DNA of 64,000 bases from Siphonodentalium dalli (Eukaryota > Mollusca > Scaphopoda > Gadilida > Siphonodentaliidae), in assembly GCA_032622095.1 (NCBI GenBank), contig CP136068.1, forward strand, positions 159,359,465 through 159,423,464. Reading direction: 5' to 3'. Positions 4,211 through 62,683 of this stretch are shown one piece after another (position 1 is the stretch's first letter; every line of letters begins with the position of its first letter). Made by a program: the position numbers and the translations under genes. A model generated the notes under the pieces. It did not search any database. It saw only the letters and a program-made list of their open reading frames with translations, and had not been told where the DNA came from.

Positions 4211-5774
4211 AGTATGTTTAATAATTGCGGCCGAGACTGATTCATTAAATTTCATCGAAATGTTGTAATCTCGGTTACTATGGGTGTATTTTTTTATGCC
4301 ATAATTATCATTGTTGATATGTGACGCGAATTCAACTACTCCGTTGTTTACTTTTGATGGGTATTCTCACCAGGAGACAAAAACACAAGGCTACAAGGAA
4401 TGTACGCCAGGCTTAGTGATGCATTATGCATACATTTACGTCATGACGTCAGTCTGTTTCTGAGCCACCAGTAACTTGATACATTTCATATGTTTCCTAG
4501 TTCGTATAACATTTGCAAGCTACATTTGATTGAAATACCGGCAATGTTCCTCATGTCTAAGTGAAATTATGACAACTTCCAATTTTAAATGAATGTAATA
4601 TAATAACTCTTTTCCCAACTACGATGGTTCGACTATGGGTATAACCGTTTAACAATTGAAATTACCTTTGAAACTTTAAACCCACAGTAGCAATGTATAC
4701 CCACAGTACGATGCTGTATAGCCACAGTAGGGTGTAAAGATGAAGTTTATAAAATGGGTGTTATACACGCAATTGAACAGTGAATATGGTCAACTTGACG
4801 AATCAATGTTACATAAAGCCGATCATTAATATCGGTCTGATAGCATATGACACATTCTGAGAAAACATGTTAAAATATTTCCAATCGGCACAAGCGAACT
4901 TTTGGCCAGAGCTCTCAATTGACTGGTTATTGTTCTGTGGCCATTAGTCGGACTTTATCGCCATTCATATGAAAATGCAGTCTGCAGATGGGAGATCTGA
5001 ACATATTCAATATTATAAATCACCCCTATTTTGTACCACATTAATATAATTTGGAATAAAGTACACATCTGGCGTTACATGGACTGGCAATGTCTTTCTT
5101 TCATCCCTTCTGTTCGTTGACGTAATGGGGAGTGATATCATCTGTCATTGTTGTCGATTCGTTACTAACTCCTGAAAATAAATGAACACGTATATCATTG
5201 GTGGATCCACATGCAAACATTATATAAATTATGATAACTGCATATATATTATTCTCTCTCATTGTCTTTTATTTTGAATGAACAGTTACTAGCAACGCTC
5301 TATATATATACTTGTTTCTTGAATGACTGTATAAACTGATAAAATTGAAAGCAGTCGAGTTACCGGCAATAACATTCTGGAATGGTGGGCATTCCCCGAG
5401 CTAATTGTCTCTGATGCGAACTTAAATGCATACTAACTGCGTGTCCTTGGTTACCGATCATTTGTCATCGTAAGATGAAAACGACAGTTGTAGCGTTACC
5501 TTACTATTTTCTAGCTGTACCTTAGATGTTAATGCATATTGCACTAATACACTGCATTACTTCAGATATAAGTGGAATGTGTTAGTTAAGAGTACTCAGT
5601 AAGTTAGTATATACATATATGTTAACCCTTTACCCAACAAACCGGCCAAAAACGCCCAAATAAAGCTCCAACAGCCTAAATAATCTTCGGTCTGTCTCAA
5701 TAACACCATACAAATATGGATATCATTGGAACCGGTTCATTGACCACATTGTGATGGTTACAGTTATGCCATGT

Positions 5775-5843
5775 GCCAATGCATTCTCTTATATATGCGA
5801 GTCGACCATAGGTCGCCTCGCATATATAAGAGAATGAATTGGC
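5775..5843. repeat. 69-bp palindrome (A left)
   Basis: GCCAATGCATTCTCTTATAT...ATATAAGAGAATGAATTGGC. The stem tip is CGACC-ATA-GGTCG, flanked by a T/C mismatch, the only non-pairing position near the tip. Confidence 0.9.
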
Positions 5844-5921
5844 CTAAAAAAATATTTTTTTAACACTTTTTACCATTTTTTCTTACATTCTTTAACAATT
5901 TTATAATTTTTAATGTGTTAA

Positions 5922-5988
5922 GCCAATGCATTATCTTATATGCGAGGCGACCTATGATCGACTCGCATATGTAAGAGAATGCATTGGC
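5922..5988. repeat. 67-bp palindrome (A right)
   Basis: Reverse complement of the left palindrome, including the mismatch on the opposite arm (G/A). It carries a two-base deletion in TATATA and a single change in the tip. Confidence 0.88.
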
Positions 5989-6215
5989 ACAGGGCCACAT
6001 GTTGCGTTGCATGATCCTCCGTCCACTTCAAAATCGATGTGCGGATAACGAGGAACAATTTTTCTGCGGTCATTATCATATATTCGCCTTCATATCGTGT
6101 GGGAAAATTATACAGGGATAGTTTTGAAGCCATTATACTTTTTACTATACCTATGTTTGCCAACTAGAAAAGCGTTATATGCCGTCAGCCAGTCATCCAT
6201 TCGGACTTGTTATTG

Positions 6216-6335
6216 TCATTCCAGAGGGCTAGGTGTGATTTTACTGTCATTCCAGAGGGTTTAGGTGTGATTTTACTCTCATTCCAGAGGGTTAGGTGTG
6301 ATTTTACTCTCATTCCAGAGGGCTAGGTGTGATTT
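6216..6335 (+). repeat. 31-bp tandem repeat, 4 copies
   Basis: TCATTCCAGAGGG followed by YTAGGTGTGATTTTACT occurs at 6216, 6247, 6279 and 6310. The spacing is 31-32 bases. Confidence 0.9.
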
Positions 6336-6419
6336 TCGCTTACCATGTCAAAATAGTCGTCGGAGCAGACACACACTTACCTATACTAGTTACAAATACA
6401 ACAAATACGTTCTACTCAC

Positions 6420-6497
6420 CACCGTACTTCGCATACTGCGAACATGTCATAAATTTTCACCATTTCGCATCGGCACAGTGGACATCCATTTTGAAAA
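6420..6497 (-). CDS. internal exon of cysteine-rich secreted protein (partial gene)
   Basis: A 78-bp exon-like block on the minus strand. Upstream is a good acceptor (TTTTTCTCTGCAG, ending 6498) and downstream a consensus donor, GTGAGT (6419-6414). Entering in phase 2 it reads FQNGCPLCRCEMVKIYDM, then FAVCEVR, and leaves in phase 2. This aligns with the end of the exon at 9846-9578 (PCIPVLCECRLIKILTFAIC) in cysteine spacing, in the K-I...F-A-x-C pattern and in its donor. GCPxCxC is reminiscent of the end of an antistasin-type module, but one such motif is not enough to name the family. Its phase fits the 9.6-kb exon, so they may be two exons of one gene about 3.1 kb apart, or exons of duplicated genes. 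No further exon is secure. Confidence 0.5.
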
Positions 6498-7151
6498 CTG
6501 CAGAGAAAAAGTATAATAAAACTTTATGAACCTTTAGCATTAGAACATATGATTTTAGATACTAAACACAAATACCGATTACACGGTTGACCCCTAAAAA
6601 TTATTTGACATTGTATGCCTAAAATCTCTAAAATTCCATGAGCAGATATATATTCCCAGGCTTCGAAATTGTCCAATATATAGTAGATGACAATGACTGA
6701 AAATCATACTCGTAGTTTATACTCCATATTTATCAAAGCATTGACATGTAAGTCAAATGCTGCTAATTTCCCTGACAGGGTACCCCGGTTCGTGAACGTG
6801 GCCTCAGTCGGGATTGTATGTAAGTCACGCATGGAAGCTGGTGTGTCGGTAGAGAGCGCAAGACAGAGCGATAGGAGTGTGGCTGCTAATTAATGCATTC
6901 TTTAGATGTAACTTGTATTCGCTTTGTACGTATGTTCAATTGTTATTCAATAAAAATATTTTTTTTTAAATTAGGAACCTCTCCAATTAACACGGCGACC
7001 AACACATTTAGTGGAACTTGAATGCAGACCGTTGGCTGTCGAATAATATGCACGCAGGGCCCATTTACTTCCATAATGTATACCATGTTGTATATCAATT
7101 AGAACGCAATTGATCGTTATATATGGTAACATAATTGGGTGTTTTTCATGT

Positions 7152-7226
7152 TTGTGCAGGATCTCCTAAAAGTATGCAACCGATCCATCTTTAGTGGGAT
7201 GTCCCAATGGTCACAACCGATGCATC
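7152..7226 (-). repeat. dispersed repeat, 75 bp, inverted copy
   Basis: Reverse complement of 549-623 with a few differences. The region 6530-7150 otherwise shows nothing I can name. Confidence 0.6.
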
Positions 7227-7240
7227 ATCAATGTAAAGCA

Positions 7241-7295
7241 GGGTCTACTTTTGCCAAATATTTTGCCAAATGAAAATAATTTTTGCCAAATGTAT
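7241..7295 (+). mobile_element. fragment of TTTGGCAAA-rich MITE family
   Basis: CAGGGTCTACTTTTGCCAAA, then two more TTTTGCCAAAT motifs. It matches the reverse complement of the right end of 31485-31939. Only one end is present. Confidence 0.5.
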
Positions 7296-7964
7296 GTCCA
7301 CGACATCACTCATGTGATGTAGATTTCTTGTACGATTTCGATAGTATTGGGGCTTGGAACACCACCTAATACAGGTGTAAACCTATTTCCGGTAACATGG
7401 GGAATGGTATGAAATAAACCTAGGTATATATTCTAAAGTGTCACATGGACAATTCGGAAGTAAACTAAATTGAAAGAAGTAGAACGGGAATATGCCTGGT
7501 ATTTTATAAATTTAGTATATAGTGAGAATGCATACGGTATTATACAAATATAGCTGATCTCCAACGAGTTATGCATATATGAAAGCATATTACATGACAT
7601 GTGTATGCGTACCAGTATTACAAATCCATGCATCTTAGACATTAAATTCTAAAAACAATGAAGGTTTTTCAAAAGTTGTGGCTTCATGATTTAAATAACT
7701 ACTGGCAGTTTACGATCTATCTGAATAAAATACGAAAGTCGTAGTTATTTTAACAATATTGAAATTCAGAACACATACGTATGCTGCGAGGTTTCGAAAG
7801 AGTTAATACATAGCGAAATTTAAAATTGTGTACATGATTATGAAAATGTATGATAGTAAGCTATAAGGTGTAAAATGTTATAATTTGACAGGCATCGTCG
7901 TTAGTTCCGTTAACCGGTGATGTAGCGTTAAAGCAACATGCCATGCACTAACAGGATATATATC

Positions 7965-8400
7965 GTGAGAATCGTGAACAAGAGGTCACAAAATGTGGCG
8001 ACTCCAAATGCAAAACATGTCGCTACCTGCACACCGGGACATACTTTACCCTCAAGAATGGGCATGTTGTCCGCCCTAATGAGAACATGGACCGCAATAC
8101 CCGAAATTTAGTTTATATTATAGTATGTTCTGGATGTGAGGAATTTGATGTTGGACAAACGGGAAATTCCCTTGTCGAAAGAACAAGGATCCACCGCCAG
8201 CAAATCAGACAACCGGAATTACGGATGATTCCATTAAGTAAACATATGGATGAATGTGGGGATGGATCCTCGGGATTTTCCCCATGCACAAAATGATGGA
8301 AGTCAACACATTCAAACGGTTGCAGATGGAACACAAGTTGTTTCGGAACTAATTAAATCCGAAACTAAACTCTATCATATAATCGCGACGTCACACACCC
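7965..8400 (+). pseudogene. Penelope-like element, C-terminal GIY-YIG endonuclease remnant
   Basis: One frame reads a Cys-rich linker (KCGDSKCKTCRYL) and then NLVYIIVCSGCEEFDVGQTG, the core of a GIY-YIG nuclease with the VGQTG and ERTRIHR signatures. This order is characteristic of Penelope-like retroelements, where the nuclease follows the reverse transcriptase. The frame breaks near 8285; a second frame then carries a Lys/Glu-rich tail and a PKLN-like C-terminus behind an in-frame stop. No reverse transcriptase lies upstream, so this is a 5'-truncated, frameshifted dead copy. It sits inside the putative intron between 9578 and 6497, in the opposite orientation to that gene. Confidence 0.8.
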
Positions 8401-8806
8401 ACCTCCCGGAAGTGACGTCACAATAGATATAATTATAATAATAAAATGGCGTTATCCTGAAGATCTACGAAAAGCCGTGAAAAGGCATCGTTATACAGCC
8501 AAAACAATGTGTTTATGTGTATTCACATCTTACCTATATATAAACATGTACGTTTGAACTTGCAGCCATTAATTCAATATGTATATATATATATATCTTA
8601 CAACATAGTAGTTGACATTCTAACTACATACAACTCAAACTGAATGACCACGGCGTCACTGCTGTGATGTAGAATATTCTAACGACATTTTATTATTGTT
8701 GTCCAATTTATAAATCAGCTAGGTCCGTCATGATTGAACACATACAAAGGTCAGGTAAAACTATTTATTCAGTAATTCACTTCTTAATAGGTGCAATTTG
8801 TCTTAA

Positions 8807-9030
8807 AGGGTACTGTACACTAAACCCGGCCAGTTATGGGACCATCTCCTTTTAATCGCAACAGACTATATGTAAAAAATTAATCTATTTGAGCCATGGA
8901 TGGATGCAAAATACACTTGTGTGCTCTATGAACGATGCAAACAACGAAGTAATTATAATGCAAATTAATTTGTGAACTCCATTTAACATTGAGTTAGACA
9001 CAAAGTTGTTTATTATCGCACCGTTCTATG
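8807..9030 (+). mobile_element. MITE with GGGACCATCT terminal repeat, partial copy
   Basis: TACTGTACACTAAACCCGGC, GGGACCATCT, then GAACGATGCAAACAACG and GTAATTATAATG. It follows 28695 onward closely. The right inverted end is not recognisable, so this copy is truncated or decayed. An AT dinucleotide run lies at about 8581-8597. Confidence 0.6.
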
Positions 9031-9846: not shown

Positions 9847-9948
9847 CTTAGATCAAATAATATTAAAGTCGGACACTCGATTAAAACAACTGTTGTCTGG
9901 GTTAAAGACTGATCCGTGGGTATTATATATGAGATTTCAGCTAGGAAG

Positions 9949-10100: not shown

Positions 10101-10844
10101 TCCGTGACAATCACACTTGACATTATACGTGGTGAGAGTGATATTTCCCACGGTGATGCAAATGTACCGTCGGGCGCGAATAATTAATGAAATGTGGTTA
10201 CCGGAAATATCACATACAATTTCAAGAGTCAATTTTCACCTAAGTTCGGCTGTCATTCGCACCAACATTGACTGTTTATAAATGTAATTGGTGGATTATA
10301 ATTAAGTGCACAATTGTGCATTTGGTATTTTTCTTCTATGATATTTCTTTAGAACTGCGTGAAATTATATATTGCTTTTTTACGAAATTGCTTTTGCCAT
10401 AGCTAATTTCGAGGGCTGCTGCATGTACACCAGCATACGGTATAATGAGATCCAGTCATTAAACCCATTCACATTACATGTATGTGCTGATGGTTGTATA
10501 TCAAGTTTCAAGTGTCAGATACATGTATACTGAATTTAAGTTTTGAAATCAGATCACCCACTAGTGCCAATGTGGTATTACTTCATATGAGTGTAATGGT
10601 TACCTCATTTACAATAAATCATATATTTATCCTCGTGATACCCTTATCAAAGGGTATTTAAGTTGTATGTTCCTATGGGATTGTCGTGATACATATGTAC
10701 AGTTTACAATAAACATTGCGACGAGCAGAAAATGGGCTTGGAATAGGACATTTTGTTGTCAGACCAGATGTTAGATGGGTCATTTTAAATTGGCAGATAA
10801 GCCATCGTGTGGATTTAACCCTTTACCCAGCAGAACGGTCCTGT

Positions 10845-10913
10845 GCCAATGCATTCTCTTATATATGCGAGTCGACAATAGGTCGCCTCACATATATAAG
10901 AGAATGCATTGGC
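10845..10913. repeat. 69-bp palindrome (B left)
   Basis: Same core as A left: GCCAATGCATTCTCTTATAT, tip GTCGACAATAGGTCGC with the orientation-marking mismatch. Confidence 0.9.
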
Positions 10914-11054
10914 TTAACACATATTAAAAATGATAAAATTGTCAAAGAATGTAGAAAAATATGATAAAAATTGTTAAAAAATGTAAGAAAAAATTATAAA
11001 TTGTTAAAGAATGTAAGAAAAAATGGTAAAAAGTGTTAAAACAGATATTTTTAG

Positions 11055-11123
11055 GCCAATGCATTATCTTATATATGCGAGGCGACCTATGGTCGACTCG
11101 CATATATAAGAGAATGCATTGAC
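11055..11123. repeat. 69-bp palindrome (B right)
   Basis: GCCAATGCATTATCTTATAT, tip GCGACCTATGGTCGA, ending GCATTGAC. It is an inverted copy of the left palindrome. Confidence 0.9.
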
Positions 11124-11234
11124 ACAGGGCATAACTGTAACCATCACAATGTGGTCAATGAACCGGTTCCAATGATATCCATATTTGTATGGTGTTATTG
11201 AGACAGACCGAAGATATTTTAGGCTGTTGAAGCT

Positions 11235-14031: not shown

Positions 14032-14063
14032 AGAGACTCGCATATATAAGATAATGCATTGGC
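14032..14063. repeat. solo half-palindrome of the twin-palindrome family
   Basis: GAGACTCGCATATATAAGAT, then AATGCATTGGC followed by ACAGGG. This is one arm only, followed by TTTTCGCAAAAT, a flank also seen in degenerate form at 32076-32092. Confidence 0.75.
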
Positions 14064-14335
14064 ACAGGGTTTTCGCAAAATTTCAGCGTGCTCCTGTCGT
14101 CAAAGGGGCAACCAGAACGGGCGAGACGGGCACGTATGATGCATGGAGAATGCATTGCAATGTGTACGATGAATGGGTACTCACTTGGCAATGCCAGTGA
14201 CAATGGCTGGTGTCTGTATCTCGATGATTCAAAGAATCAATGACAACACAAAAGTGTATATATGTCTTTATATTGAGGCGTTTTAGCTATTTGGGAAAAG
14301 GGGAATGCCGGATCTGATAATTCAAGGCCGGTACA

Positions 14336-26815: not shown

Positions 26816-27349
26816 TCTATTATATATTTTGGAAGATCTGTCTGTGTCTGTGTGTCTGTGTGTGTCTGTAATCGATGGACTTGAAAACGACCGAGCCGAT
26901 TTCGATGAAACTTGGTATGCGGGGGTATTTTCGGCCGGGGAGTGACATGGGCCTATTAATTTCCCCGTTCGACGTGACATTGACCTTGAAATCGGGTCAT
27001 TTCAAGGTCAAACGCCCGAAAATCACGGGATTTCGATGAAACTTGGTATGTGGGATACTTTCGTATGGGGAGTCTCATAAACCTATTAATTTGCCCGTGC
27101 GACGTGACATTGACCTTGAAATCGGGTCAATTCAACGTCAAATCGCCAATTTTGATGGGATTTCGACGAAATTTTATACATAGGGTAATTCAAGGTCAAA
27201 TCGGGTAAAACCGGATGGATTTCGACGGGCACGTTTGTCGGGTACTTTTGTCCGCGCAGTGTTTTGGACTTGTCAAATCGTGACCCCACTTGACCTTCAA
27301 AATGGACAACTCAAGGTCAAAGCCCGGACGAAGTCGGGTCACCTTCTAG
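26816..27349 (+). mobile_element. Helitron-like unit 5, different family, end of array
   Basis: Starts TCTATTATATATTTTGGAAG, then a TCTGTGTG run. The body repeats TTTCGATGAAACTTGGTATG and TGACCTTGAAATCGGGTCA, unlike units 0-4. Ends with a short weak hairpin (CCCG...CGGG), ACCTT and CTAG at 27346-27349, followed by T at 27350. That completes the A...T target begun at 22544. Confidence 0.75.
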
Positions 27350-30688: not shown

Positions 30689-30729
30689 AGCATGTTCAGT
30701 TAACCCTTTACCCAATAGAACGGTCCTGT

Positions 30730-30795
30730 GCCAATGCATTCTCTTATATATGCGAGTCGACCATAGGTCGACTCGCATACATAAGAAATGCAGGC
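30730..30795. repeat. palindrome (C left)
   Basis: Here the tip reads GTCGACCATAGGTCGAC, so the usual mismatch has been converted to a paired T/A. The 3' arm is shortened (AAGAAATGCAGGC). Confidence 0.88.
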
Positions 30796-30860
30796 TTAAC
30801 ACATATTAAAAATGATAAAATTGTCAAAGAATGTAGAAAAATATTATAATTTGTTTTTAG

Positions 30861-30928
30861 GCAATGCATTCTCTTATATATGCGATGCGACCAATGGTCG
30901 ACTCGCATATATAAGAGAATGCATTGCC
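30861..30928. repeat. palindrome (C right)
   Basis: GCAATGCATTCTCTTATAT ... ATAAGAGAATGCATTGCC. The tip GCGACCAATGGTCGA keeps a mismatch. Confidence 0.88.
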
Positions 30929-31383
30929 ACAGGGCATAACTGTAACCATCACAATGTGGTCAATGAACAGGTTCCAATGATATTCATATTTGTATGGTGT
31001 TATTGAGACAGACCGAATATATTTTAGGCTGTTGAAGCTTTATTTGGGCGTTTTTTGGCCGTTTTGTTGGGTAAAGGGTTAAACGTTTATCTAACGTCAC
31101 TGCAACGGGTCAATTAAAACATGTGAGTGTTTATCGCGTTTTAGGTTATGTTTATATCGAACTATACGTCAAGGAAAACTTCACATCGGAGGACGTGTTT
31201 GATAACAAACACGTTTTCAACCTCAGCGGCGAAGGCGTTTTATTAAGAGGTGAAATAAGACACAAAAGTGTCGCGAATTTCAGCACCAACATCTAAAACA
31301 AAAACAGATCCATTTTATTTTATAGCATTTTATAAAATACAACTTGATCCAGTGAGACTTTTTAAATCACGACTTTTAGCGTG

Positions 31384-31939: not shown

Positions 31940-32004
31940 ATAATATATAATATATAATATATAAGAGAATGCACAAACTTACAATGTCAAGGTAACTACT
32001 GTTA

Positions 32005-32074
32005 GGTCAATGTATTCTCCTATATATGCGAGGCTCACTATGGGAGACTCGCATATATCAGATAATTCAATGGA
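32005..32074. repeat. degenerate single palindrome of the twin family
   Basis: GGTCAATGTATTCTCCTATA ... TATATCAGATAATTCAATGG with a decayed tip. It is followed by a TTTTTGCAAAATG flank as at 14064. An adjacent run AATATATAAGAGAATGCACA at 31963 may be part of the partner. Confidence 0.65.
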
Positions 32075-32084
32075 ACAGATTTTT

Positions 32085-32963
32085 TTGCAAAATGTCTGGA
32101 AAGTCCAGACATGAAAGGTTTAAAATCAATAACCAACATTTAAGAGACAACCCACTCTGTCGCGTTGTATTGCATTTCGTTGACACAACACTTACACCGA
32201 CTCTCGACAAAAACAAAAAGTTCGATATAGTTCTTTGTACCGCCGTCAACAGTTCTAAAGAAGCCACTTCGGTTGTATATAATCGGTGCTACTTGCCGAT
32301 GCCATTGTATCGAGCCAAGAAACAATGTCTATTCTACGTACACACCAATGTCGAAACCCACTCGACATCACATTCGCTTTGTGTTTTATATACGCTGGAC
32401 CAACTCATTGAGCATGCGTTGTTATGATTGGAATAGCATTCAGACTGACTCGTTTGTGAAACAAAATCTCCGATAGTACTGAAGAGCCGCGAAAGTGCGT
32501 GCAGGTAACTTTATTGCGTGCGTGCATGGAACTAGATGCTATCGGGCGACTCAAATCCGATGTTCATATGTAATGTAGCTGGTGTATCGATGAAAGCAAT
32601 AGTTCCACAAAAAAAGTGCTACCGGATGTTGCAAACAAGAGGTTCCCGCTGATCCAGACAAGACTCATCGAACTGACGTGTCAAAGAAATACCGCTTTGT
32701 GAATGCAAGATTCATGAAACCACTGCCTGCATTCGTAATTAGAAATTGAAAACTGTATAGTGTTTGGGAATATAGTACTCCATTGTCTGGATAAGACAGC
32801 TCTGCATGCAGTGTGGATTTTTTAATTTAACATTTACGTCGGTTTGCATCTCGGGACCAAGCGATTTTTATTGTGATTCTGGTTGAAAAGAGAAAATAAC
32901 CGCCATCACCACAGTGGCCATACTCACCTTGTTTTCCGATAATAACATGCAACATTATTATTA
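32085..32963. other. no supported gene
   Basis: A plus-strand ORF runs to 32427 (about 106 residues after the repeat), but it shows no motif, signal peptide or splice context I can use. I leave it uncalled. Confidence 0.45.
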
Positions 32964-33020
32964 TTGAGATATGTACATATGAACGACGTTAGAAGTGTTA
33001 CAATTAAACACAAACAAAAC

Positions 33021-33302
33021 ATGTGTTGGTTACGCGTGTGTGATCAATTCAAATTCGGACTGATGTGTGTTTTGCTATTTCATGTTTCTGCCGTTTTTGG
33101 TTTGAATCCATTTCAACCTGCAAATCTTCTGATTGAAATTAAGCTAACAAACATTCTGAGGTGTGAGAAAATGTGTACGAGACATGAGTACTGTTCGAAC
33201 ATCGGATACAACGTAAAGACAAAAATGTGTGTTCTCTTAACTTCGATGGTTACAGGAGGAATGACCACTCCTATTGAGTGGATAGCGAGGAACGTCACGA
33301 AG
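33021..33302 (+). CDS. first coding exon of PAN/Apple-domain secreted protein
   Basis: ATG at 33021 opens 94 codons, ending in phase 0 at donor ACGAAG|GTAAGG (GT at 33303). Residues 10-28 form a signal peptide (FKFGLMCVLLFHVSAVFG). The mature part has cysteines at 48, 52, 58 and 70 in RCEKMCTRHEYCSNIGYN, then VKTKMCVLL: the C-x3-C-x5-C ... YN ... C-x-L core of PAN/Apple modules, which mediate protein or carbohydrate binding outside cells. An upstream in-frame ATG at 32964 is possible, but the one chosen puts the hydrophobic segment at the N-terminus. PAN modules are usually somewhat longer, so at least one more exon is expected. The open frame past 33302 to 33461 is likely intron read-through. 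Confidence 0.68.
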
Positions 33303-33489
33303 GTAAGGTTTTACTTCAGAGCGAGATACGTCACGAAGTTAGGGTACACGCTAAATCCTGGAGGGCCAGCAGAATTTTACCCCTCTGTGGGTTGTACGGC
33401 TATATGGGTGTATTGTGTTTATGTTTCCATCCGAGGGGCAGAATACACACTGCAATGTTAGACAGGTATCACTTTCCGTTGAGTGGCCA

Positions 33490-36232: not shown

Positions 36233-39200
36233 TTATTTTATTTTTAAGGCATTTCGAAGTGTCATCCACTGGTTATCGAAGTCATAATTCATGTTACATT
36301 TTGCATTGTATCTCTCGCATCCATACCTAAATTGAAGATCGCAAAGGAATGAGCAAAGCGACAGTTGTGTTGGCGTGAATTTTGTCCTGTATATATACTG
36401 TTTCATCACTAACAGGAAGAGGTTGCTTATTGACTTTCTGTATTCGTGATCTATACCGATAATAATATTCTTCTTTGTTAGATCAATGGGAAAATGGTTG
36501 TTTTCCTTCCATATTTCAATTTCCTTTATAAAGGTTTGTACATGGGGACAGTCCCAAAAGATATGAGAAATTGTTTCCTGTAAATTTTGACACCGATTGC
36601 AGAAGTCGTCGACTCGAAGGTTAGCCAACTTCAGAAATTTATTGGTACCGATAATTCGCGTGTTTATTCTGAATTGGAGCCACTGTAATTTCGTATCGGT
36701 TGTCGTTTTAAAGGGCATGCTCAAATATTCTTCCCAATTTTCTATCTTCTCGGAAATTTCGGATTCCCATTTTTGACATGAATTTGGCATAATTTTCTCA
36801 CTTTCTAGCACTTTATAAAATAATTGTCCGCCCTTTTTGTCACGGAGTATCGCAGTAAGATTATTAGGTAGGTATGGGCATGGTATACGGATTAATGGTT
36901 GATTAAGAGAACTTGCCATTGATATAATCTGACGTTTTATGTTGCTGATAGTTATGAAATCGACGCGGATGTTGAAATTTGCATATAATGTGTGTGGGGT
37001 ATGGAATGTATAATCTGATTGGAATAAATCGTTTATAAAATATATTCCCGCATCTCTCCACGATTTAAAGTTGATTGATGAACCTCCAATTTTTATGTTC
37101 GGATTATTCCAGATAGTCGAAGCCATAATAGTATTATTTGAATTATTTAATCGCATAAATTTACACCATGCACCGAAAACATCTCTCCAGAATGGATTTG
37201 CGAACTTGTTTGTTTGCTTTGCAATATAACTTGAATGGTACGTGAGAAATAGTTGGTCGTTTAAGAAAGATGTAGTGTTACACAATGAAGCCCATTTTGA
37301 TTGTTTGCAAACCAAGCGTCGTATCCAGGTAATTTTCATGGCATTATCAAAGTTTTCAACATTAATCATCTTCAAACCTCCGTGCATATGATCGGCACAT
37401 AATTGTTTTCTTTTTATTCGATCGCGTTTGGAATTCCAAATGAAATTATATAAACAGGTATTTAGGGCTTTAAAAAAAGTTGTACCTGGACTTGGTAGAG
37501 TTATAAATAGGTGTGTCAATTTCGGTAAGATGAGGGATTTGACAACGGTTATTCTACCTAAAGGGGTCAGGAGTCTGTGTTTCCAAATTTTTGTGGTCTT
37601 TTCTATATCTTCGAGTTTATAATTGTAGTTTATATTCATGTTTGTTAAATCAGTGTCGAAGTGTATACCTAGAAAATTGAAAGTGTTTACAGTGGACAGG
37701 TTTAAATCTATAAGAACATGCCGTATTTTATTTGGTGACCCTATCCCTATCCATGCTGATTGACATTTTTCAGGATTTACGCGCAGACCCGATACCCGAG
37801 CAAATTCGTCAAGTGTTAAGTACGATTCACGTAGACTTTTTTCAGAACCATCAAGAATGAGCGTCGTGTCGTCCGCATATTGTGTTATTTTGTACTCTGA
37901 ACCGCCGAGGATAATCCCTTTAATTGTATTGTTTTGGCGTATCATTAGCCCCAAGACTTCTGCGCAGATGAGTAAAATATACGGTGATATTGGGTCACCC
38001 TGGCGGCAGCCTCTCCCTAACAAAAAGCTCTGAGAAATATGACCATTAATCAGAATAGATGAGCTGGCATGATCGTACAAAATTGATAGCCACTTCTTTA
38101 TGGTATCTCCAAAATTAAAAAGGTCAAGACATTTTCTTATAAATGACCAGGAAACAGTGTCAAACGCTTTTTCAAAATCGATAAGGAGTAGTAGACCAGA
38201 TTTATTTTCTTGCTTTGTCCTGTGAATTATGTCATATATTAATCGGGTGTTGTCTCCTATATACCTACCAGCTAAAAACCCAGTTTGATCGGGATTGATT
38301 ATAGATGAGAGCACACGTTTTATTCTGTTCGCTATACATGACGAGGCTAGTTTGTAAGATGTATTCAAAAGGGAGATGGGACGCCAGTTTTTTTAGCATC
38401 TTTCTATTTTTATCCTTTTTTGGAATCAAAGTTATAATACCTTGCTTTTGTGTGATTGATAGTTCCCCTACCGAAAACGATTCATTGAGCGAGTCTATTA
38501 AAAGGGGACTTAAGTCAGACCAAATTTTTTTATAAAATTCGTAGGTGTATCCAGATGGCCCTGGGCTTTTATTATTTTTGGTGTTCTTAAGCGCGTCTGT
38601 TAATTCTTGCAAAGTTAATGGTCCTTCAATACTCGAGGCCTGCGTAGGGTTTAGTTTAGGAACTTTTCCATCTTTAAGAAGGGAGTTTAGATCGCGATCG
38701 TCCATTGACCTATGTGAGTATAAATTAAGGTAAAATTTTCGGGTTTCTTTCATAATATCGTTTTGTTTCGTGATTGTACTACCATCGGCGATTGTCAGAC
38801 TGGTCAGGGTTTTGGAGATGTAGTTACGTTTTTCTAAATTTAGAAAATATTTTGTTGGTTTTTCACCTTCTTCTATCCATTTAGCACGAGATCGAACCAT
38901 GGCTCCGCGGATTGTTTCTTTTCGCATTGCTTCAATTTCGGCTTCTAATTTTTCCAAGTCTTTCATTATTTTCTGTTTGTCACCAGAGATGTTGGATTCA
39001 AGATCTGAAATAATTTTTTCCTTTTTTGATGTCAGATTTTTCTCGATTTTTGTTCGCTCACGTTTTCGATGTGCGGAAAAGCGTATGGTGGCGCCTCTGA
39101 TATCAAGCAACACTGCGTCGAGGAAGAGTCGTTTTCCAATTGAACATTTTATCTTGCTTTCGTTTTCGGTTACATTTGTGGAGTAAGAATATCTAATTTT

Positions 39201-40018
39201 ATTTTCAGCTATTCATTGATTTTACTAAATTAACATATTCTCTACAGTACAGAAGAGAATTATTAAATTTCCAAAACCCTGGACCAGTTTTGATGTCACT
39301 GACGTTTAATGAGAGTGAAATAATAGAATGATCTGATTTGTACCCAGGTAAAATTTCCGGTCCTTCTCCAGTTAGATTAAGGAGGTCCTCAGAGATTAAA
39401 AAATAATCTAGCCTCGCCATTTTAACTGGGGATTTTCTTCTCCACGTGTAACGTCTTCCTTGTTTATTGAATAGTCTCCACACGTCAACTAGTTCAAGGC
39501 TGCCGGCAAGGTCAACAACTTCATTTATGGCATGGGGGTTATTTATATGTTTGTAGTTATAAGTGTCTATGTCTTGTTTCTGAACAAGATTCCAGTCTCC
39601 ACACATGATTATTTGCGTGTTCCCAATCTGGGTAATTAGTTTTTTTTAGGTTAGAGTAAAAAGCTGGATTATCATCATTGGGCCCATATAAATTCACCAA
39701 ACTTAAACGTATTTTGTCTATGGTTATATCAAGTATAATAAAATTTCCACCAGAGTCTTTGTATGTTTCGTGAATAATATACTCGAAGTTATTTCTAAAT
39801 AGAATAGCTACACCTCAAGCTTGCGAAGAGTATGATGCCATTATTGCTTTGCATCCCCATTCTGCTTCAATGCACCCTTCCATGCGATTAGTAAAGTGTG
39901 TATCTTGCAAACAATATATAGATCCACCAAGGTTACGGATGTGATGGAAAACGTCTCGGCGTTTATCGGTTTGGTTAAGTCCACGGCAGTTCAGAGAAAA
40001 AACTTTTATATTACTCAT
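36233..40018 (-). pseudogene. LINE ORF2: APE endonuclease, reverse transcriptase, zinc motif (interrupted)
   Basis: From the ATG at 40018 the first segment has the APE endonuclease start (VFSLNCRGLNQ). It stops at an in-frame TGA near 39815, where the expected codon is CGA. The frame slips within an A-run at about 39640, again near 39213, and at a seven-A run at about 38390. The pieces in order are: nuclease (to 39205; MCGDWN, LDYF and SDH motifs), linker with coiled coil (39113-38400), and reverse transcriptase. RT motifs: DFEKAFD, RQGDP and YADD (about 37879-37868). A zinc-binding CNRC...H...C motif lies near 36560-36610. The final 711-codon piece reaches a natural stop at 36233. As read it is not functional, but the breaks are few and two of the three slips are in homopolymers. 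Confidence 0.88.
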
Positions 40019-43980: not shown

Positions 43981-46900
43981 GAGATGGCCACATGTTTATT
44001 AAATTAAACGATACAGAGGTTTAATGAGGGCCAACAGGTCCGGATAGTCCTCCATGCGGTGTGAGGCTCGATGGGAGTCGACTCGAGCAGCATATGCCGG
44101 TGGTGTGTCGGCCCATACATCTGGGTAGATGGATGTGATGAGCCCGATGGGGTTCTACTCGAGTAGATGTCGGTGGTGTGTCGGTCCAGACATCTAGGTG
44201 CATGGATGTGATGGGCTCGATGGGGTGCAGCTCGAGCGGCATATGCTGGTGGTATGTCGGCCCAGGCATCCGGCGGTGAATGGAGATGATGTGCTCGATG
44301 GGGTACGGCTCGAGCGACAGACACTGGTGGTATATCGGCCCAGCATCCGGTGGAATGAATGTGGTGCATGGATGTGGTTCACGAGTTCGATCCGGACCAG
44401 CATGCCCCGCACTCCGGCGATGTGACCGCACAGCAGCTGGAAAGAGAAAATAGACAAGCACAGCGAGGGAAACGAAGACATCAGCAGAAGCAGCATAAAC
44501 AAATGCGCGGCCCCTGGGAAACGGCGGGGAAGCAGAAACACAACGGGTGGAGCAAGCAGTGTATGATGCATAAGCAGCCGGGGGGGCATAATCAGCGGCG
44601 AAATCCAGGTAGCGGATGAAAAATCAGCAGTGGGTGAAGCAGAGGATGTGATGAGCTCGATTGGATTCGGCTAGAGCAGCAAAGGCCGGTTGGGCGTTGG
44701 CCCAGGCATCGAGGTGCGGGATGAGATGAGCTCGATGGGATACGGCTCGAGCAGCAGATGCCGGTGATATGACGACCCAGGCATAAGCAGCGCATGAAGC
44801 GGAAGAGGCGACGAGGCGATGACGCATGAATAGCGGATGGTACGAGATGAGGCCGCAGCGGTGGGCGGATCGGGAGCGGCGGAATAAAAAGCAGCGGGCG
44901 AAGAAGAGGATGAGTTGAGGTGAGCTCGATGGGATTCGGCTCGAGCAGCCGATGCCGGTGGTGCGGCGGCACAAGCATCGCGGGTGCGGTGAAATGAGCT
45001 CGATGGGAAACGGCTCGAGAGGCAGATGCTGGTGGGTGTCGGCCCAGGCATAAGCAACGCATGAAGCGAAGATGCGGTGAGGCAGGAGTAGCAGGTGAAA
45101 CGTGAGCTGAGGGAGGAGCGTGAGCGGCGAATTAACCGAAGCAGCGGGAGGAGCCAACGCGGCGGGAGGGGCAGAAGCTGCGGGGTAGGCAAAAGCGGGG
45201 GATAGGTGGAAGCGGCGGTGATGTATAACCAGCAGGTGAGGCGACAGCAGCGGGCGAAGCGGGTGCGGCGGTAATGAGAAGCAGCGGGTGAAGCAAAGTA
45301 TGAGATGAGCTCGATGGGATTCGGCTCGAGCAGCAGATGATGGAGGGTGGCGGCCCAGACAGCTAAGGTGAGGGATGAGATGAGCTCGATGGGAGACGGC
45401 TCGAGCGGCAGATGCCGGTGGTATGTCGGCCCAGGCATGAGCAGCGCATGAAGCGGAAGAGGCGGTGAGGCATGAGTAGTTGTTGAGACGCGATCAGCGG
45501 GTAAATCGTGAGCGGCGGATAAACAAGAGAAGCGGGGGGGCAAAAGCGGCAGGGGAGCAGGGCGGCGGTATATGCAAGAGCAGTCGGAGAGGTGGAAGCT
45601 GCGGTGAGGTATAACCAGTGAGTGAGGCGTCAGCGGCGGTGAAACGCGAGCGTCGGTAATGAGAAGCAGCGGTTGAAGCAGAGAATGAGATGAGCTCGAT
45701 GGGATTCGGCTCGAGCAGCAGATGCTGGTGGTGAGTCGGCCCAGGCATCGGGGTGCGGGATGAAATGAGCTCGATGGGAGACGGCTCGAGCGACAGATGC
45801 CGGTGGTATGTCGGCCCAGGAACACGCAGAATTGGAAGCGGAAGAGGCGGTGAGGTATGAGTAGCGGGTGAGACGTGGACGGCGGGCGAAGCGAGCGGCA
45901 GAGAAGCAGAAGCGGCGGGTGAGGTAGAAACCACACGTGAAGCAACAAGCGGCGGTTAACCATAAGCGGCGGGCGAGGCGGAGGAGCGGGTGAAGCATGA
46001 TCGGCGGGAGTGGCAGGAGCGATGGCGATTGATAAGCGGGAGTGGAGACAAAAGCAGCGAGAAGGGGCAGAGACGACGGGTGAAGCACAAGCGGCCGTGG
46101 AGCGTAAGCGGAGGTTGGAGCGTAAATGGCGGTGAAGCGTAATCGGCCGGTGAAGCGAGAGCGGCGGGTGAAGCGTTAGCGGCGGTAAAGCGGGAGCGGC
46201 TGGTGGAGCGTTATTGGCGGGTGAAGCGTTAGCAGCGGGTGAAGCATAAGCGGCGGTGAAGCGGAAGCGGCGCGTGAAGCGGAAGCGGTGGGTGATGCAA
46301 GAGCAGCGGGTGATGCACGAGAAGCGGGTGATGCAAGGGCAGCGGGTGATACAAGAGCAAGGGTTGATGCAGCATAGCGATGAGCTCGATGGGAGTCGGA
46401 TCGAGCAGCAGATGCTGGTGATGTGGCGGCCCAGACAACGGATGCATGGATTGGCAGAGCTCGATGGGATGCGGCTCGAGCGGTACAATCCGATGGACGT
46501 CGGGCCAGACAGAAGCAGCAGGTGACGCGGGTTGAAGTGTAAGCGGCGACCGAAATATAAGCAACGTTTGAAGCAAAAAGGCGGCGGGAAAGCGGCGGGT
46601 GAGGCGTAAGCGGTGACAGAAGTAGAAGCAGGAACGGCGGTTGAAGCGGAAGCGGTGGTGAACTCTAGGCGAGTGTAGAAACGGGCGGGCGATGTAGAAA
46701 CTGTGGGGAAGCACAGGCAGCGGATGGAGCAATAGCGGGGGGTGAAGCATCACTGGCGGTGAAGCAGAAGCGGCGGGGGGCATAAGCGGCAGGCGAAAGG
46801 CGCCGGCAGTGATTGATTGGCAACAGCAGGGGGAGTGAATCAGAACGATGTAGGATAAGTAGCGGCAGGGAGCACCACGGAGAAAACAGGGGGCGATATC

Positions 46901-47000
46901 GACGCCGATGATGTTAGCGGGCCACCAGCGAGCGGAATGAGACAAGCTAGTGTGAGCGGCTGCTGGGGGGAGGATAACCGAGAGAACCGATGGCCTGGCC
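43981..47000 (+). repeat. GC-rich purine-skewed tandem repeat with 385-bp higher-order period
   Basis: The core GAGCTCGATGGGATTCGGCT CGAGC occurs in doublets 74-75 bp apart at 44653/44728, 44922/44996, 45307/45382, 45692/45767 and 46382/46457, after a tetrad at about 44052-44300. Doublet starts at 44922, 45307 and 45692 are exactly 385 bases apart. Between doublets are short AAGCGGCGGGTGAAGC-type repeats. The plus strand is strongly G+A-rich and much richer in GC than its surroundings. Stops are rare on the minus strand, giving several long overlapping ORFs (up to 605 codons) in different frames. None has a start context, signal peptide or motif, so I do not call a gene. Confidence 0.85.
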
Positions 47001-57807: not shown

Positions 57808-57820
57808 TCCTGGAGCATCC
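57808..57820. repeat. SINE target-site duplication, left
   Basis: TCCTGGAGCATCC, repeated exactly at 58129-58141. Confidence 0.88.
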
Positions 57821-58128
57821 GGTGCCTCGGTGGCTCAATCGGTTAGGGGTACAACTCCAAGCTGTTGCGCCCTCTACCGCAGGCGATAAGGGTTCAAACC
57901 CTCACGTTTCCGTCGTGGACTGTGTGGCTCGAAATCGTTATCTGGTGGAGTTGCCAGTTACTCGCCGATTGCCGGTGGTTTGCCGCACATGGTTGACGAG
58001 TTTATCAGCCATTGACATCACTGTTAGATTAGTCGCAAGTGTGCGGATTTCCTCCAACACTAAAACTGGCAATGTCGTGATATGGCCTTAGTTGCTAAAG
58101 CGACAATAAACCCCAATCAATCAATCAA
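57821..58128 (+). mobile_element. tRNA-derived SINE, complete
   Basis: 308 bp between exact 13-bp duplications. The 5' part is a tRNA-like head with an A box (TGGCTCAATCGG, 57831-57842) and B box (GGTTCAAACC, 57891-57900), the internal RNA polymerase III promoter. The body includes GGAGTTGCCAGTTACTCGCC, also found as a fragment at 13912. It ends AATAAACCCC(AATC)n. Intact boxes and duplications suggest recent mobility, using enzymes of a LINE not identified here. Confidence 0.88.
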
Positions 58129-58141
58129 TCCTGGAGCATCC
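58129..58141. repeat. SINE target-site duplication, right
   Basis: TCCTGGAGCATCC, directly after the (AATC)n tail. Confidence 0.88.
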
Positions 58142-58264
58142 AAGGTTGCCAAGAACTATTGGGATGTGGTTACAAGAATGGATGCAAAAACAATTGTAAA
58201 TTCTCGAGGGCATCATTACGCTGTTCTGCTCTATGCAGTTTCAATTGCAAATAGAGTGATGCCC

Positions 58265-58398
58265 TAAGTAATCGACCCTTTAACCACATCAGAATTATGG
58301 GTAATTGTCAGGGTTTAATCGGAAATAAATATCCATATTTTCGACTAAATCCTGAACGTTACCCATAATTCTTCTGGTGTTAGGATGTCGATTACTTA
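58265..58398. mobile_element. short inverted-repeat MITE, 134 bp
   Basis: The ends TAAGTAATCGAC and GTCGATTACTTA are perfect inverses. Similarity continues inward for about 60 bases (AGAATTATGGGTAA / TTACCCATAATTCT; CAGGGTTTA / TAAATCCTG). Possibly TA-flanked and mariner-like, but the target is not proven. Nothing recognised at 58399-59507. Confidence 0.7.
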
Positions 58399-59507
58399 AG
58401 GTATTACTGTAAGTGTTGCCAACAGTGAATGTATGCAAAATTTTCCAACTCTTTGGGGTGCGTTCACACAACTAGCAGAATTGACTAGCGATTTGTCATG
58501 AATTCTTCATACATGACTATCCATTGCACATTCTTGAATGCCACTTATCGCAGAATGAGTGTATTCGACTGTTTTATCCTATATTGGAGCTGAGAAATGC
58601 CACGAGTTATTGCACGATTGATTCTCATAATATATTAGAATAGATTTTTTTAGCACACTTCAGTTGTATAACAACTATATAGGGAATTACATATATCTCA
58701 CGATATTGCTATTGCAAATGTAAACAATTCATATTATACCTTGTTGCACATAATTCGCACCTACGCTCGTAATAAGAACATTTGCTTACCTCTATTTTGA
58801 AGAATTATAGTTAATATCATAAATATGTAAACTTTGCGGTACGTGTATGTTGTGCGTATAATACCACAATGATTAGCAGCTTGTTAAATTGTGAGTAAGT
58901 GTTATTATAGCTGCACAAAGGTAATCGGGTAGCTCCATAGCAACGGTTGTCAAGCAGTTTTGTACCAGACCAATATTGTCTGCACACACTCGCTAAAATG
59001 ATATGATATAAAGTTAACGCGGAAGATTGTCATAATCAACTTTCAGATAGTTTTATATCATATAAATGCTTCTTGTGTCATTATACCCATCAATTATAGT
59101 AATCAAAACAAACAACTCATTGTTTTTTTTTGCATTATATTTACGCTATTCCATCATCTACTGTCCTATAATTTTTGTTTTGCAATCCGTAGAATTGTTA
59201 TATATATACAGAGTGATTTATCAGTTTATGTTTTCTTGTCAAAGTACATTTTATAATAAAAAATGTACCCACATCTTAATAAAATGTTGATACACGCAGC
59301 CAATAATAGGGACTTTCAAACAAATGGCGGCCATTTTATCCGCCATTTTGATTCTACCCAACTATAACGGACACTGAGTCAATGGATATATAGCCTGATC
59401 CATTTTCAGTACAAATAGGTACATAACACGTTGTTTTTCGATGAGAAACTAAGTCATAACGATGCATACTTGTTGGGATTGAGAGAAAAACAAGAATTGT
59501 TGTCAAA

Positions 59508-59642
59508 ACGGTTACCATGGCAACCATGGGCTTTCTCCAGCTTGGCATGATATCAAAAATGTCTTATTTTTATATGTAGTACATGCGTGTTAAGTTTTGT
59601 GCTTTTACCATAAAATGCACGATTTTGTCATCTATCCGCCCC
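59508..59642. repeat. two adjacent dispersed repeats
   Basis: 59508-59553 is the inverse of 49146-49189 (GGTTACCATGGCAACCATGG). 59552-59642 is the second copy of 54838-54928. Confidence 0.75.
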
Positions 59643-59795
59643 ACTACATATACTCACTACCGCCATGTGAGGTCGGTTGTGGCCGAATTTCTCTATTATC
59701 GAGAAATGGAATTACTAAATACAGTTAGTATTGTCAAAATAAATTGTGACCCGCCATATCATATCCAGTCGTAAGTCGGGATTTTTTTACCCTGT

Positions 59796-59864
59796 GCCAA
59801 TGCATTCTCTTATATATGCGAGTCGACCATAGGTCGCCTCGCATATATAAGAGAATGCATTGGC
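59796..59864. repeat. 69-bp palindrome (D left)
   Basis: Consensus sequence, with tip GTCGACCATAGGTCGCC carrying the marker mismatch. Confidence 0.92.
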
Positions 59865-60084
59865 CTAACAATTTTTTATCATTTTTTTTAAATAAATGTT
59901 TCTGACAATTTTTAGGACATAAAATAAAAAAAACATCCATTACCTTGCAGTGAGCCCCACGCATATATAGAAGCATATATAAGAGTGTCGTCTGCTCATG
60001 TTTGTCTGGGGCTCTGTGTGGTTGAAATTATAAAATTGTTGAAGAATACAAGACAAAATTATTAAAATTGTAAAAAATTGTTAG

Positions 60085-60153
60085 GCCAATGCATTCTCTT
60101 ATATATGCGAGGCGACCTATGGTCGACTCGCATATATAAGAGAATGCATTGGC
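60085..60153. repeat. 69-bp palindrome (D right)
   Basis: Exact reverse complement of the D left palindrome as far as I can see. Confidence 0.92.
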
Positions 60154-60207
60154 ACACGGTAAACAAATCCCGACTTACGACTGGATTTGATATGGCGGGT
60201 CACAATT

Positions 60208-62129
60208 GTCAAATGCTGCCAGTTATACCTTACTATTTTAACTTGTAATTCCTTGTATCGAACTTTCAGATGATGTCGGTATCCTATCTCATTATCAATT
60301 TATACAAGAATATCACTTAAAGTATTTGTGGATATTTGATGTGCAGGGAATAAATGCGCTAAATTATGCTTCCAATGTAGCCCAAATTTGGCCCACGGTC
60401 TACATTCTGTCGTAAAAGATGACGCACCAGATATCACGCCGATTAGTCAAACTTGAGATATAACATTGTCCCAAAACGCCGTATTTGCACTCAAGTTGAC
60501 ACTATATTGCTTATGATGGTTGTCGAAATGACGTCACAAAACGTCACACTCAAACTCATACTTGCTTTGATAGAATGGCTATTATTATGGTTATATTGCA
60601 TAGGCGAAACTTCCATCAATTTGTCACATCAGGTTGCGTGTAAATATAATTAAGGGATATTGATTCTGTCGTGGAAGAGCATGTGCTGTAGAGTCGACAG
60701 CTCTATCATCGTTGGGCATGGGTGCTAAATTATCCGATTTCTGTTAGCCAGTTGAGTGCATATATAAGTAACGAATGTTGTCTTTTGTTGAAACTTGTGC
60801 ATTGAATGTGGAATCGAATGGTTCTACTCGGAAGACGGCGAAGGGACGCAGTATGATCTCCGGCCAGTGGGTAGTGCTCAGCAGATTAGAAAACCCACAG
60901 TCCCGAGCGGACCGGGAATTATACAATTGCAACACTGTCGGCGCTAAATGCTCTTTTAATCTTCCAATTGAGTGTAAATATGTATAAATAAAATGTTTAA
61001 GACATCAAACTGCTCGTGACGCGCTTAAATTGGCTGCAGTACAGGGGGCCCGTACCACATATACGCTGCTGAATAAAGGCTCCCGAAGGGATCATGGATG
61101 GGATCAAAATGTGCGCGGAGGACACAACGGGCAGCAGTCTGCGCATAATGGGGCAGCATGTCCCTATAATCCGCGTAATAAAGGTTCCATATGGGAACCT
61201 GTTTAAGATAACAACAAAAATGCATGAAGCGCACAAAAGGGCCACACGAAAACCCCTATACAGGTAGGCAGGTTGCACCCAATGGGGCCACATAGCATAT
61301 TTCAGTTAATATAGTTATACAGTAATATATCTTAATTTTGTTGCGTTCCAAATGTACATGTATCATGGCGTTATGTGGGTTCGGATGAACCAGACATGGG
61401 AAGGACAATGCTGTATATTGTCCGACCATGCACTGTCTACATTATTATATGCACGTTATCGCAACGTATACACGACACACTCTGCTACCAAATGGACATT
61501 AATGGCGGCCAAATTCGAACAGGTATAGCAACGAATTCTAGAAGAGGCAAAACAATTATCCAAAGTTCGAAATAGTTGGATTTAAATTCACACTTACGAT
61601 GCTTACGCGTAATTAGTAGAGAATCGCGCTATTTTAAATATTAATGTTGTGACCCGAATACCCTCGATTGTCGAACTGAAGAATCGTTTGGCCTCCAGAA
61701 CCTTTGGTACTAAAATATTGGTATTAATCAACTTACACAATAATTGCATATAAATATCATATGTCGTACACGAACTACCCACGTAGTGGTTCGATATACG
61801 CGTATATGTAAAGGAAATACAAATTTGATTATTCATACTGTTCGTCATCAACAATTATGAACATTTTGCTGTGTGGTGCATCCGTGATATCGGATATCGA
61901 CCCATGCACCGCGCTCACCGCATCAATTATTACGTTACTACCAGCCTTAGAGTAAAACTGGATATGTTGGATGGGGGTAAAAATACTGATGTTATTGAAA
62001 TAAAGTGTTCCCACTTCTGTATGCATGCAATGGCAAGAGAAGGATACTATTGTCCATTCCATTTATAATATAAATGATAATTTGTTCATGCCTGCGAAAA
62101 CAAAAAAAGTAACAAAGCACATTTATTTA
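60208..62129. other. no supported gene
   Basis: Short ORFs only. The longest, on the minus strand at 61293-60997 (98 codons), has no motif. The GC-richer block 61020-61300 with GGTTCC-AT-GGGAACC-type hairpins is not recognised. Confidence 0.45.
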
Positions 62130-62158
62130 CCCGTCATTTGTGACGGGCAAGCCCCTAG
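62130..62158 (+). mobile_element. Helitron-like 3' end
   Basis: A perfect 7-bp stem (CCCGTCA-TTTG-TGACGGG), a seven-base spacer (CAAGCCC) and CTAG at 62155-62158 followed by T. This is the canonical Helitron terminus. The 5' end is not located. Confidence 0.65.
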
Positions 62159-62449
62159 TACATATATTAATACACACTACCTTATATGTCAGTCCCTGTT
62201 ATCAGTCCGTTGTTTCCCACACTGCAGTGAAGCACAAAATATCAAAAAGGAGTGACCAGCCTGCCTGCTACCTCAGATAATCACCAATACACACACTCAC
62301 CATGTTCAGTTGCAGTTGCATTAGCACATAAGTGCAACATGAGGAGACTTTTGAAGAAAGTTTAAAGAGGCTGAAAATGTTAATTCTCTATTTTAAGCCA
62401 TTAAGCCTTCCATGATGGGAGCTTCCTGGTTTGTGCGCGAAAACCATGT

Positions 62450-62683
62450 GCCAATGCATTCTCTTATACATGCGAGTCGACCATAGGTCGCTTCGCATAT
62501 ATAAGAGAATGCATTGGCCTAAAAATTGTATATTATTTTTTATAATTATTAAAGAATATAAGAAAAACAATGATAATTTTGTTTCAAAGAATTTAAGAAA
62601 TATTGATAAAAATTGTTAGGCCAATGCATTCTCGTATATATGCGAGGCGACCTATGGTCGACTCGGATGCATATGAGAATGCG
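62450..62683. mobile_element. twin-palindrome MITE E
   Basis: Palindromes at 62450-62518 and 62620-62683 flank a spacer with AAAGAATATAAGAAAAAC. The left flank, GCGCGAAAACCATGTGCC, resembles the flank of the solo arm at 14064 (reversed) rather than A-D. The right palindrome has decayed (ATATGAGAATGCG). 62684-64000 contains no recognised gene. Confidence 0.75.

Follow-up and report, generated by a model that had tools for sequence, protein, structure and literature searches.

Introduction

REPINs are bacterial mobile units composed of two inverted imperfect palindromes that form the ends of the element, and they are moved by a Y1 (RAYT) transposase with no TTAA or AWWT target duplication. Here, we describe elements that carry a twin palindrome in a mollusc, the scaphopod Siphonodentalium dalli, where they occur in a stretch of 64,000 nucleotides (GenBank assembly GCA_032622095.1, contig CP136068.1, positions 159,359,465 to 159,423,464 of the forward strand; hereafter the window). 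The closest precedent that we have found is the CMITE group of Acropora corals, miniature inverted-repeat transposable elements (MITEs) that Wang et al. 2010 (PMC2872659) present as TTAA-flanked families with CC[C/T]T ends and different terminal inverted repeats (TIRs). In that account the elements are about 100 bp long, share an internal region of 75 bp that is better conserved than the TIRs and are estimated at about 1,600 copies, with tandem arrays and with piggyBac transposons present in that genome as well; the paper uses neither the word palindrome nor the word hairpin.

Why one MITE family reaches tens of thousands of copies and its relatives stay rare is an open question, and a core common to families with different ends and different insertion rules suggests that an internal sequence, separable from the terminal repeats, may promote amplification. 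We favour, at a probability of roughly 0.6, a reading of the S. dalli elements as DNA transposons that are non-autonomous and moved in trans, with a conserved cis module in common that has been swapped between lineages. A bolder proposal, which we put forward tentatively and hold to be doubtful, is that the twin palindrome would be a portable amplification module, a MITE parasite working with two or more transposase systems unrelated to each other (TTAA and AWWT insertion), which moves between lineages and maintains its hairpin shape, including an obligatory T·C mismatch that marks the outer versus the inner half. The sequence strings of the elements gave no relevant match in the open-access literature, a search that leaves Repbase and subscription journals outside.

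The twin palindrome and its abundance

The consensus palindrome is 69 bp long, GCCAATGCATTCTCTTATATATGCGAG-T-CGACC-ATA-GGTCG-C-CTCGCATATATAAGAGAATGCATTGGC, with a stem of 33 pairs, a 3-nt loop (ATA) and a sole unpaired position, the T·C mismatch at 28/42; the reference copy, at 59796..59864 on the plus strand, has 33-bp arms with this one mismatch and the ATA loop. Two such palindromes, 65-69 bp long across the five pairs in the window, are inverted around an AT-rich spacer to give an inner core with the layout CCCTGT-palindrome-AT-rich spacer-palindrome-ACAGGG, with small variants. An earlier note on the window had listed five twin-palindrome elements and two single palindromes, with a 3-bp loop and an AT-rich spacer between the inverted pair, and all of these are present, the singles being a half copy (14035-14063) and a diverged copy (32006-32074). 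The note had also described an unpaired position that reads T/C in left-hand palindromes and G/A in right-hand ones; the mismatch is real, but as each right palindrome is the reverse complement of the left one, it is one mismatch read from two strands. Folded as single-stranded DNA, the four good window copies tested have z-scores of about -13 to -16 relative to shuffles, the two palindromes of element D about -16 and the diverged palindrome at 32006-32074 -5.4.

A mechanical palindrome scan of the window returned 16 places, eight belonging to this family, six being pure A/T runs and two being others. The two others are an 80-bp imperfect palindrome at 3988-4067 (31/36 pairs), unrelated in sequence by eye, and a 32-bp palindrome at 26980.

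Counts made in the window's own assembly (2,226,750,531 bases, or 2.23 Gb, in nine contigs) reveal the scale of the spread. The 25-mer of the palindrome tip, with any base allowed at the two mismatch positions, has 121,292 exact occurrences genome-wide (reversed control, 0), and 148,732 full 69-mer palindromes are found within three mismatches (control, 0), so that the palindromes alone occupy 10.3 Mb, or 0.46% of the genome. Among the first 100 tips listed, which come from the first 6 Mb of one contig, include tandem arrays and are not a random sample, 58 form 29 plus/minus pairs spaced 123-151 or 274-293 bp apart and the remaining 42 lack a nearby partner with an exact tip; there were no minus/plus or same-strand neighbours within 600 bp among these 100. 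Exact searches of prokaryote genomes and viral contigs with one and two patterns gave 0 matches.

Twin palindromes with a spacing like that of family 1, described below, recur every ~14.5 kb (four pairs) at C1:742,213-786,028 and every ~11.2 kb (nine pairs) at C1:826,059-915,885; large tandem arrays seem to carry the element in both regions of this contig.

Outer arms and target duplications

The core is housed in four or more MITE families whose outer arms are unrelated, and not in the single family that the earlier note had proposed. Nor are the palindromes the terminal repeats that it had taken them for: they are sub-terminal, and we rejected them as the true element ends because complete copies reach about 26-150 bp beyond them, to outer ends that carry the target duplications. 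The end strings of the elements are TTAACCCTTTACCC, TTAACCCTTTCATG, TTAACCCTTTGAGTGCC and GTGACCCGCC; the window elements below are given without a strand.

Family 1 was defined from element C and 20 fetched relatives (21 examined, of which L047 was not parsed). Its ends read CCCTTTACCC, its arms are unequal (26 bp for the short arm and ~149 bp for the long arm) and its length is 368-387 bp in 19 of the 20 parsed copies, with TTAA found at the left end in 17/20, at the right in 19/20 and equally on both sides in 16/20. Element C (30700..31082) is complete, reading TTAA-CCCTTTACCC...GGGTAAAGGG-TTAA, with palindromes at 30730-30794 and 30860-30928. The two other window copies are missing part of their right side. 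Element A (5622..5996) starts with TTAA and the long outer arm (5626-5774), followed by the left palindrome (5775-5843), the spacer, the right palindrome (5922-5988) and ACAGGGCC, and lacks the remainder of the short outer arm and the right TTAA; element B (10815..11234) starts with TTAA and the short outer arm, has palindromes at 10845-10913 and 11055-11123 around a spacer with a 30-bp tandem repeat (10926-11041), and its long arm is truncated at ~11234.

Family D follows a different insertion rule, having neither the TTAA duplication nor CC[C/T]T ends. It comprises element D and 40 fetched relatives, of which 33 of 41 have both ends and eight do not; the 33 have ends reading GTGACCCGCC, arms of ~50 bp and lengths of 411-461 bp. 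Loosely placed ends gave no clear duplication length, and the 33 end-anchored copies gave 4 bp: an identical AWWT duplication (ATAT, AATT or ATTT) is present in 25/33, and none agree at 5 bp. As 20 of the 41 copies were chosen by a query holding the left AATT, that AATT was selected in them and the right one was not. In three of the 33 the two sides disagree, AATT facing ATAT, a hint of exchange between copies, though mutation is possible. The complete window copy, element D (59742..60207), consists of the AATT duplication around an element at 59746-60203 (GTGACCCGCC...GGCGGGTCAC), with the reference palindrome on its left and the second at 60085-60153. Beyond the 4-bp duplication, the flanks of family D insertions are palindromic at 6/6 positions in L063, at 5/6 in L022 and at fewer in the other 31.

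Family 3, whose ends read TTAA-CCCTT[T/C]CATG, was examined in 21 loci (L064 and L106-L125), 14 of them with both ends, where TTAA stands on the left in 12/14 and on the right in 13/14; three window copies were added by eye. Element E (62401..62688), assigned to the family through an arm comparison by eye, has the left arm (TTAAGCCTTCCATG..., from 62401) and palindromes at 62450-62518 and 62620-62688, the second with a decayed outer half and no right outer arm beyond it. The decayed copy at 31957..32123 likewise has one outer arm, ending in TTAA (32120-32123), and its palindrome (32006-32074) has a tip of the CTC..GAG type; a possible remnant of its left partner, at 31957-31973, is weak (E 0.76 on its own). 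The half palindrome at 14035-14063 is joined to a degenerate family 3 outer arm (14035..14114, compared by eye) with no TTAA at its end. Family 4, recognised by eye in six copies, starts TTAA-CCCTTTGAGTGCC or a close variant, and TTAA stands directly before CCCTT at 5/6 outer ends (one end per copy).

Families 1, 3 and 4 carry the CC[C/T]T terminal motif, most copies having CCCTTT or CCCTTC and a few varying. When the outer arms of families 1, D, 3 and 4, minus the last six bases, were compared in pairs, similarity was not above that of shuffles beyond CCCTTT, the lowest p being 0.095 (D vs 4). The sharing of one core by these arms also appears when copies are chosen regardless of outer arm. 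Twenty tips hand-picked from those listed in the first 4.03 Mb of contig C1, with tandem arrays and some others omitted, and all of the family 1/D tip type, so that the other tip of family 3 could not appear, were classified by eye, since a fuzzy pattern had mislabelled family 4 as D. Seven belong to family 1, six to family 4 and six to family D (four insertions, as two pairs share flanks), and one is unclassified; no clearly free core was found among the 20. The elements are short, non-coding (the longest reading frame in the six window elements is 95 amino acids), high in copy number, homogeneous in length and flanked by target duplications, all general characters of MITEs, in line with the note's description of MITE-like mobile elements. 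The presence of at least 148,000 near-identical copies of the hairpins in several unrelated families suggests that they are a working part that aids multiplication.

Conservation and pairing of the core

The palindrome consensus is identical between families 1 and D, and the alignable parts of their spacers differ by ~18%: aligned with that of D, the spacers of A and B agree at 83% across 53 bases and at 81% across 59 bases, both above all 100 shuffles, and that of C shows no similarity to D above shuffles. This contrast weighs against neutral hitch-hiking, an unlikely alternative in our estimate, in which palindromes with no role were acquired once, and the divergence or recombination of families, together with recent bursts, would explain near-identity, pairing and mismatch alike. 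Within families the picture varies with how copies were chosen. In family 1, where the query was the whole element, the palindromes differ from the consensus by a mean of 0.8% and 1.6% per site, gaps included, against 3.3% and 2.6% for the outer arms and 6.5% for the spacer. Copies of family D picked with the core have values of 0-0.4% for the palindromes, 5.3-5.9% for the arms and 1.35% for the spacer, a contrast biased by a query that favours the core; copies picked with an arm (15/20 used, substitutions only) have 0.7% for the near palindrome, 2.6% for the far palindrome and 3.2% for the far arm, a far pair that is as neutral hitch-hiking would have it. A good case for constraint on the palindromes can accordingly be made between families, and within them a modest one or none. 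The family 3 tip is mostly CTCCC, and L109, L117, L122 and window element E carry the family 1/D tip CGACC, a mixture that fits cores moving between families, or an ancestral mixture.

The earlier note had seen compensated stems and had offered two explanations, recent spread from one copy or selection on the structure. The window fits compensation poorly: of the 27 stem pairs that have changed across the nine full-length arms, 22 differ on one side and five on both, and pairing is kept in three of the five (one in C and two in 32006). A larger alignment covered 132 arms (46 from core-picked D copies, 40 from family 1, 36 from arm-picked D copies and 10 from the window; L001-L008 were omitted as duplicates), in which the fetched sets were picked by similarity and lean to young copies. 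There, 73 arms have no stem change at all and 128 have T/C at 28/42. Recent spread of near-identical copies accounts for the bulk of the pairing and for the mismatch held in common. The 11 two-sided changes are close to the mean of 10.4 given by shuffling, and the sites of the mismatch have changed once and three times against a mean of 2.64 per stem site; both results sit well with neutral hitch-hiking, the mismatch being no better protected than an average stem site. Against it, pairing is restored by eight of these 11, compared with an expectation of about one third, although several were inherited together. Element D and the core-picked D copies together give 42 arms with six substitutions, every one of which breaks pairing.

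Family 3 is older and more diverged. Its sample of 28 arms from 17/21 loci was located and aligned via the palindromic consensus, and so leans towards structure; counting G-T as paired, 89.3% of the 803 cells are paired. Relative to the family 1/D consensus there are 105 one-sided and 48 two-sided changes, and 47/48 of the latter are paired. Forty of the 48 trace to three inherited changes (GC>TA at positions 30/40, AT>CG at positions 31/39 and AT>GC at positions 5/65, the last in right arms only), through which pairing survives, a point against neutral hitch-hiking; the remaining eight are sporadic, some of them at CpG. The T·C mismatch is kept in 18/20 arms. Helix changes in pairs alongside a persisting mismatch would fit a quasi-palindrome read by a protein, and to that extent the idea of selection on structure has gained from family 3, although shared descent over a short time explains much of the pattern, and hairpin-templated repair and CpG decay could account for some of the paired changes without selection.

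Candidate transposases

Under the preferred reading, of a cis module shared among elements mobilised in trans, the outer arms would set which transposase cuts and pastes each element. The TTAA and CCCTT ends of families 1, 3 and 4 point to a piggyBac-type insertion, and family D would use a different transposase, one whose insertions would be marked by a 4-bp AWWT duplication. The inner core, two 69-bp quasi-palindromes inverted around the AT-rich spacer, would be the shared cis-acting module, retained for helping the elements to multiply and most likely serving as a site for transposase dimers or a host factor; its transfer between MITE lineages would probably proceed via recombination or gene conversion. 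A docking role is plausible in view of the piggyBac transposase, which is described as binding 19-bp subterminal palindromes via paired cysteine-rich domains (PMC11707139). The other ends and other duplication of family D break a simple picture of piggyBac docking: either its own transposase also reads the palindromes, or the palindromes serve a shared factor, such as a host factor.

The genome contains 128 matches to PF13843, the piggyBac transposase domain, with 116 of 649 candidates scored, and among them are piggyBac transposases with TTAACCCTTT- and TTAACTCTTTAC-type ends; the autonomous ends observed include TTAACCCTTTATCTGC and TTAACTCTTTACTCCCC.

Several results weigh against the preferred reading. 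The search for a mobilising transposase, which the earlier note had recommended, recovered no autonomous partner for the core-bearing families among 36 piggyBac loci and five end types: palindromes are present in 0/36 of the transposase loci examined (of the 128 matches), which reach 1.5-2 kb on each side of the match, so that some element ends may fall outside, and the best autonomous ends agree at 11-12 of 16 bases (family 4 with L069 at 12, family 1 with L087 at 11). The transposase of family D was not found, no superfamily-directed search having been made. The palindrome is 69 bp here against 19 bp in piggyBac. The far palindrome of the arm-picked D copies is hardly better kept than the far arm, conservation estimates shift with the choice of copies, and the signs of exchange between lineages are indirect.

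Alternative origins of the core

An improbable origin, though one with some support, is that the core is itself a transposon that nested into several older MITEs and was then carried along. The ends of the core are similar across the contexts seen (CC[C/A]TGT / ACAGG-like, with variants), and the flanks of the core in element D join across TA into a 94-bp palindrome with 45/47 pairs. In L012 (~940-1410 of the locus, minus strand), a D-type copy has its left outer arm, its right side stops at ACAGGG and AATTACCATGTTGT is repeated on both sides, a possible one-ended insertion. When the genome was searched with the two D flanks joined, however, none of the 40 candidates scored (of 1,726) was an empty copy, and the single match across the middle (L105) is a deletion in which part of the core remains. 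The hand-picked tips, with no clearly free core and one unclassified, and the lack by eye of a constant duplication beside the core across families also speak against nesting. Insertion of the core at the centre of a palindromic D element had been suggested by D alone, and the search for empty copies weakened it.

Hairpin-templated repair (quasi-palindrome correction), which would keep the two halves alike without selection, seems to us more improbable still as the main explanation. Several of the sporadic two-sided changes in family 3 do restore pairing, and in the left palindrome of element C the mismatch has been converted into a T-A pair. Yet such repair should erase the T·C mismatch, and perfectly paired main tips are rare genome-wide (550 with T-A and 206 with G-C of 121,292). 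Among 100 main tips listed, 97 have T/C and three T/G. The mismatch persists in the family 3 tip too: CTCCC-ATA-GGGAG has 3,649 occurrences genome-wide, and 100 listed comprise 89 with T/C, five with T/T, two with T/G and one each with A/C, C/C, G/C and C/A. Some of the sporadic changes, those at CpG, may be plain decay.

A REPIN-like system, in which hairpin ends are read as single strands by a Y1 (HUH) transposase, shares the plan of two inverted imperfect palindromes around a spacer and a very high copy number, and is very improbable here, given that the outer arms and 4-bp TTAA or AWWT duplications fit DDE transposases and the palindromes do not lie at the ends.

Other features of the window

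The remainder of the window includes a broken long interspersed nuclear element (LINE) at 36233-39645, whose reverse transcriptase and endonuclease fragments lie on the minus strand, long tandem repeats at 44000-47000 with units of 18 to 385 bp and overlapping open frames on the minus strand, and an open frame at 32946-33461 that matches a PAN domain (E 1.1e-05) near a 25-bp repeat array. An Rfam scan of the window gave 0 matches.

Comparison with known systems

Among described elements, the ATon elements of Aedes aegypti (PMC3422177) are similarly abundant and non-autonomous, and some are described with subterminal palindromic motifs; the target site given there is TA with flanking A and T, and the comparison is one of descriptions. 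In the account of piggyBac transposon ends (PMC11707139), the palindromes lie slightly inside the tips and the transposase dimer docks there, a likeness of layout. Families 1, 3 and 4 resemble piggyBac/TTAA MITEs in having TTAA (in family 4, at the one end read per copy), a CCCTT start, a short length and, in the window copies, no long frame; they differ in that a twin-palindrome core is common to several families and no matching autonomous element was found among the loci examined.

Of the systems compared, the likeness is greatest to the coral CMITEs as Wang et al. present them (PMC2872659), for in both cases an internal region is common to families with different TIRs. It does not extend to the sequence compared: a CMITE 60-mer scored within the range of shuffles against the six window elements, the best (A) being reached by 15/200 shuffles. 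Set against that account, the core in S. dalli is a twin palindrome, is represented by at least 148,732 palindromes and is hosted by a non-TTAA family, D, as well as by TTAA families; the twin-palindrome form, the copy number and the sharing with a non-TTAA family are what is new relative to the coral elements.

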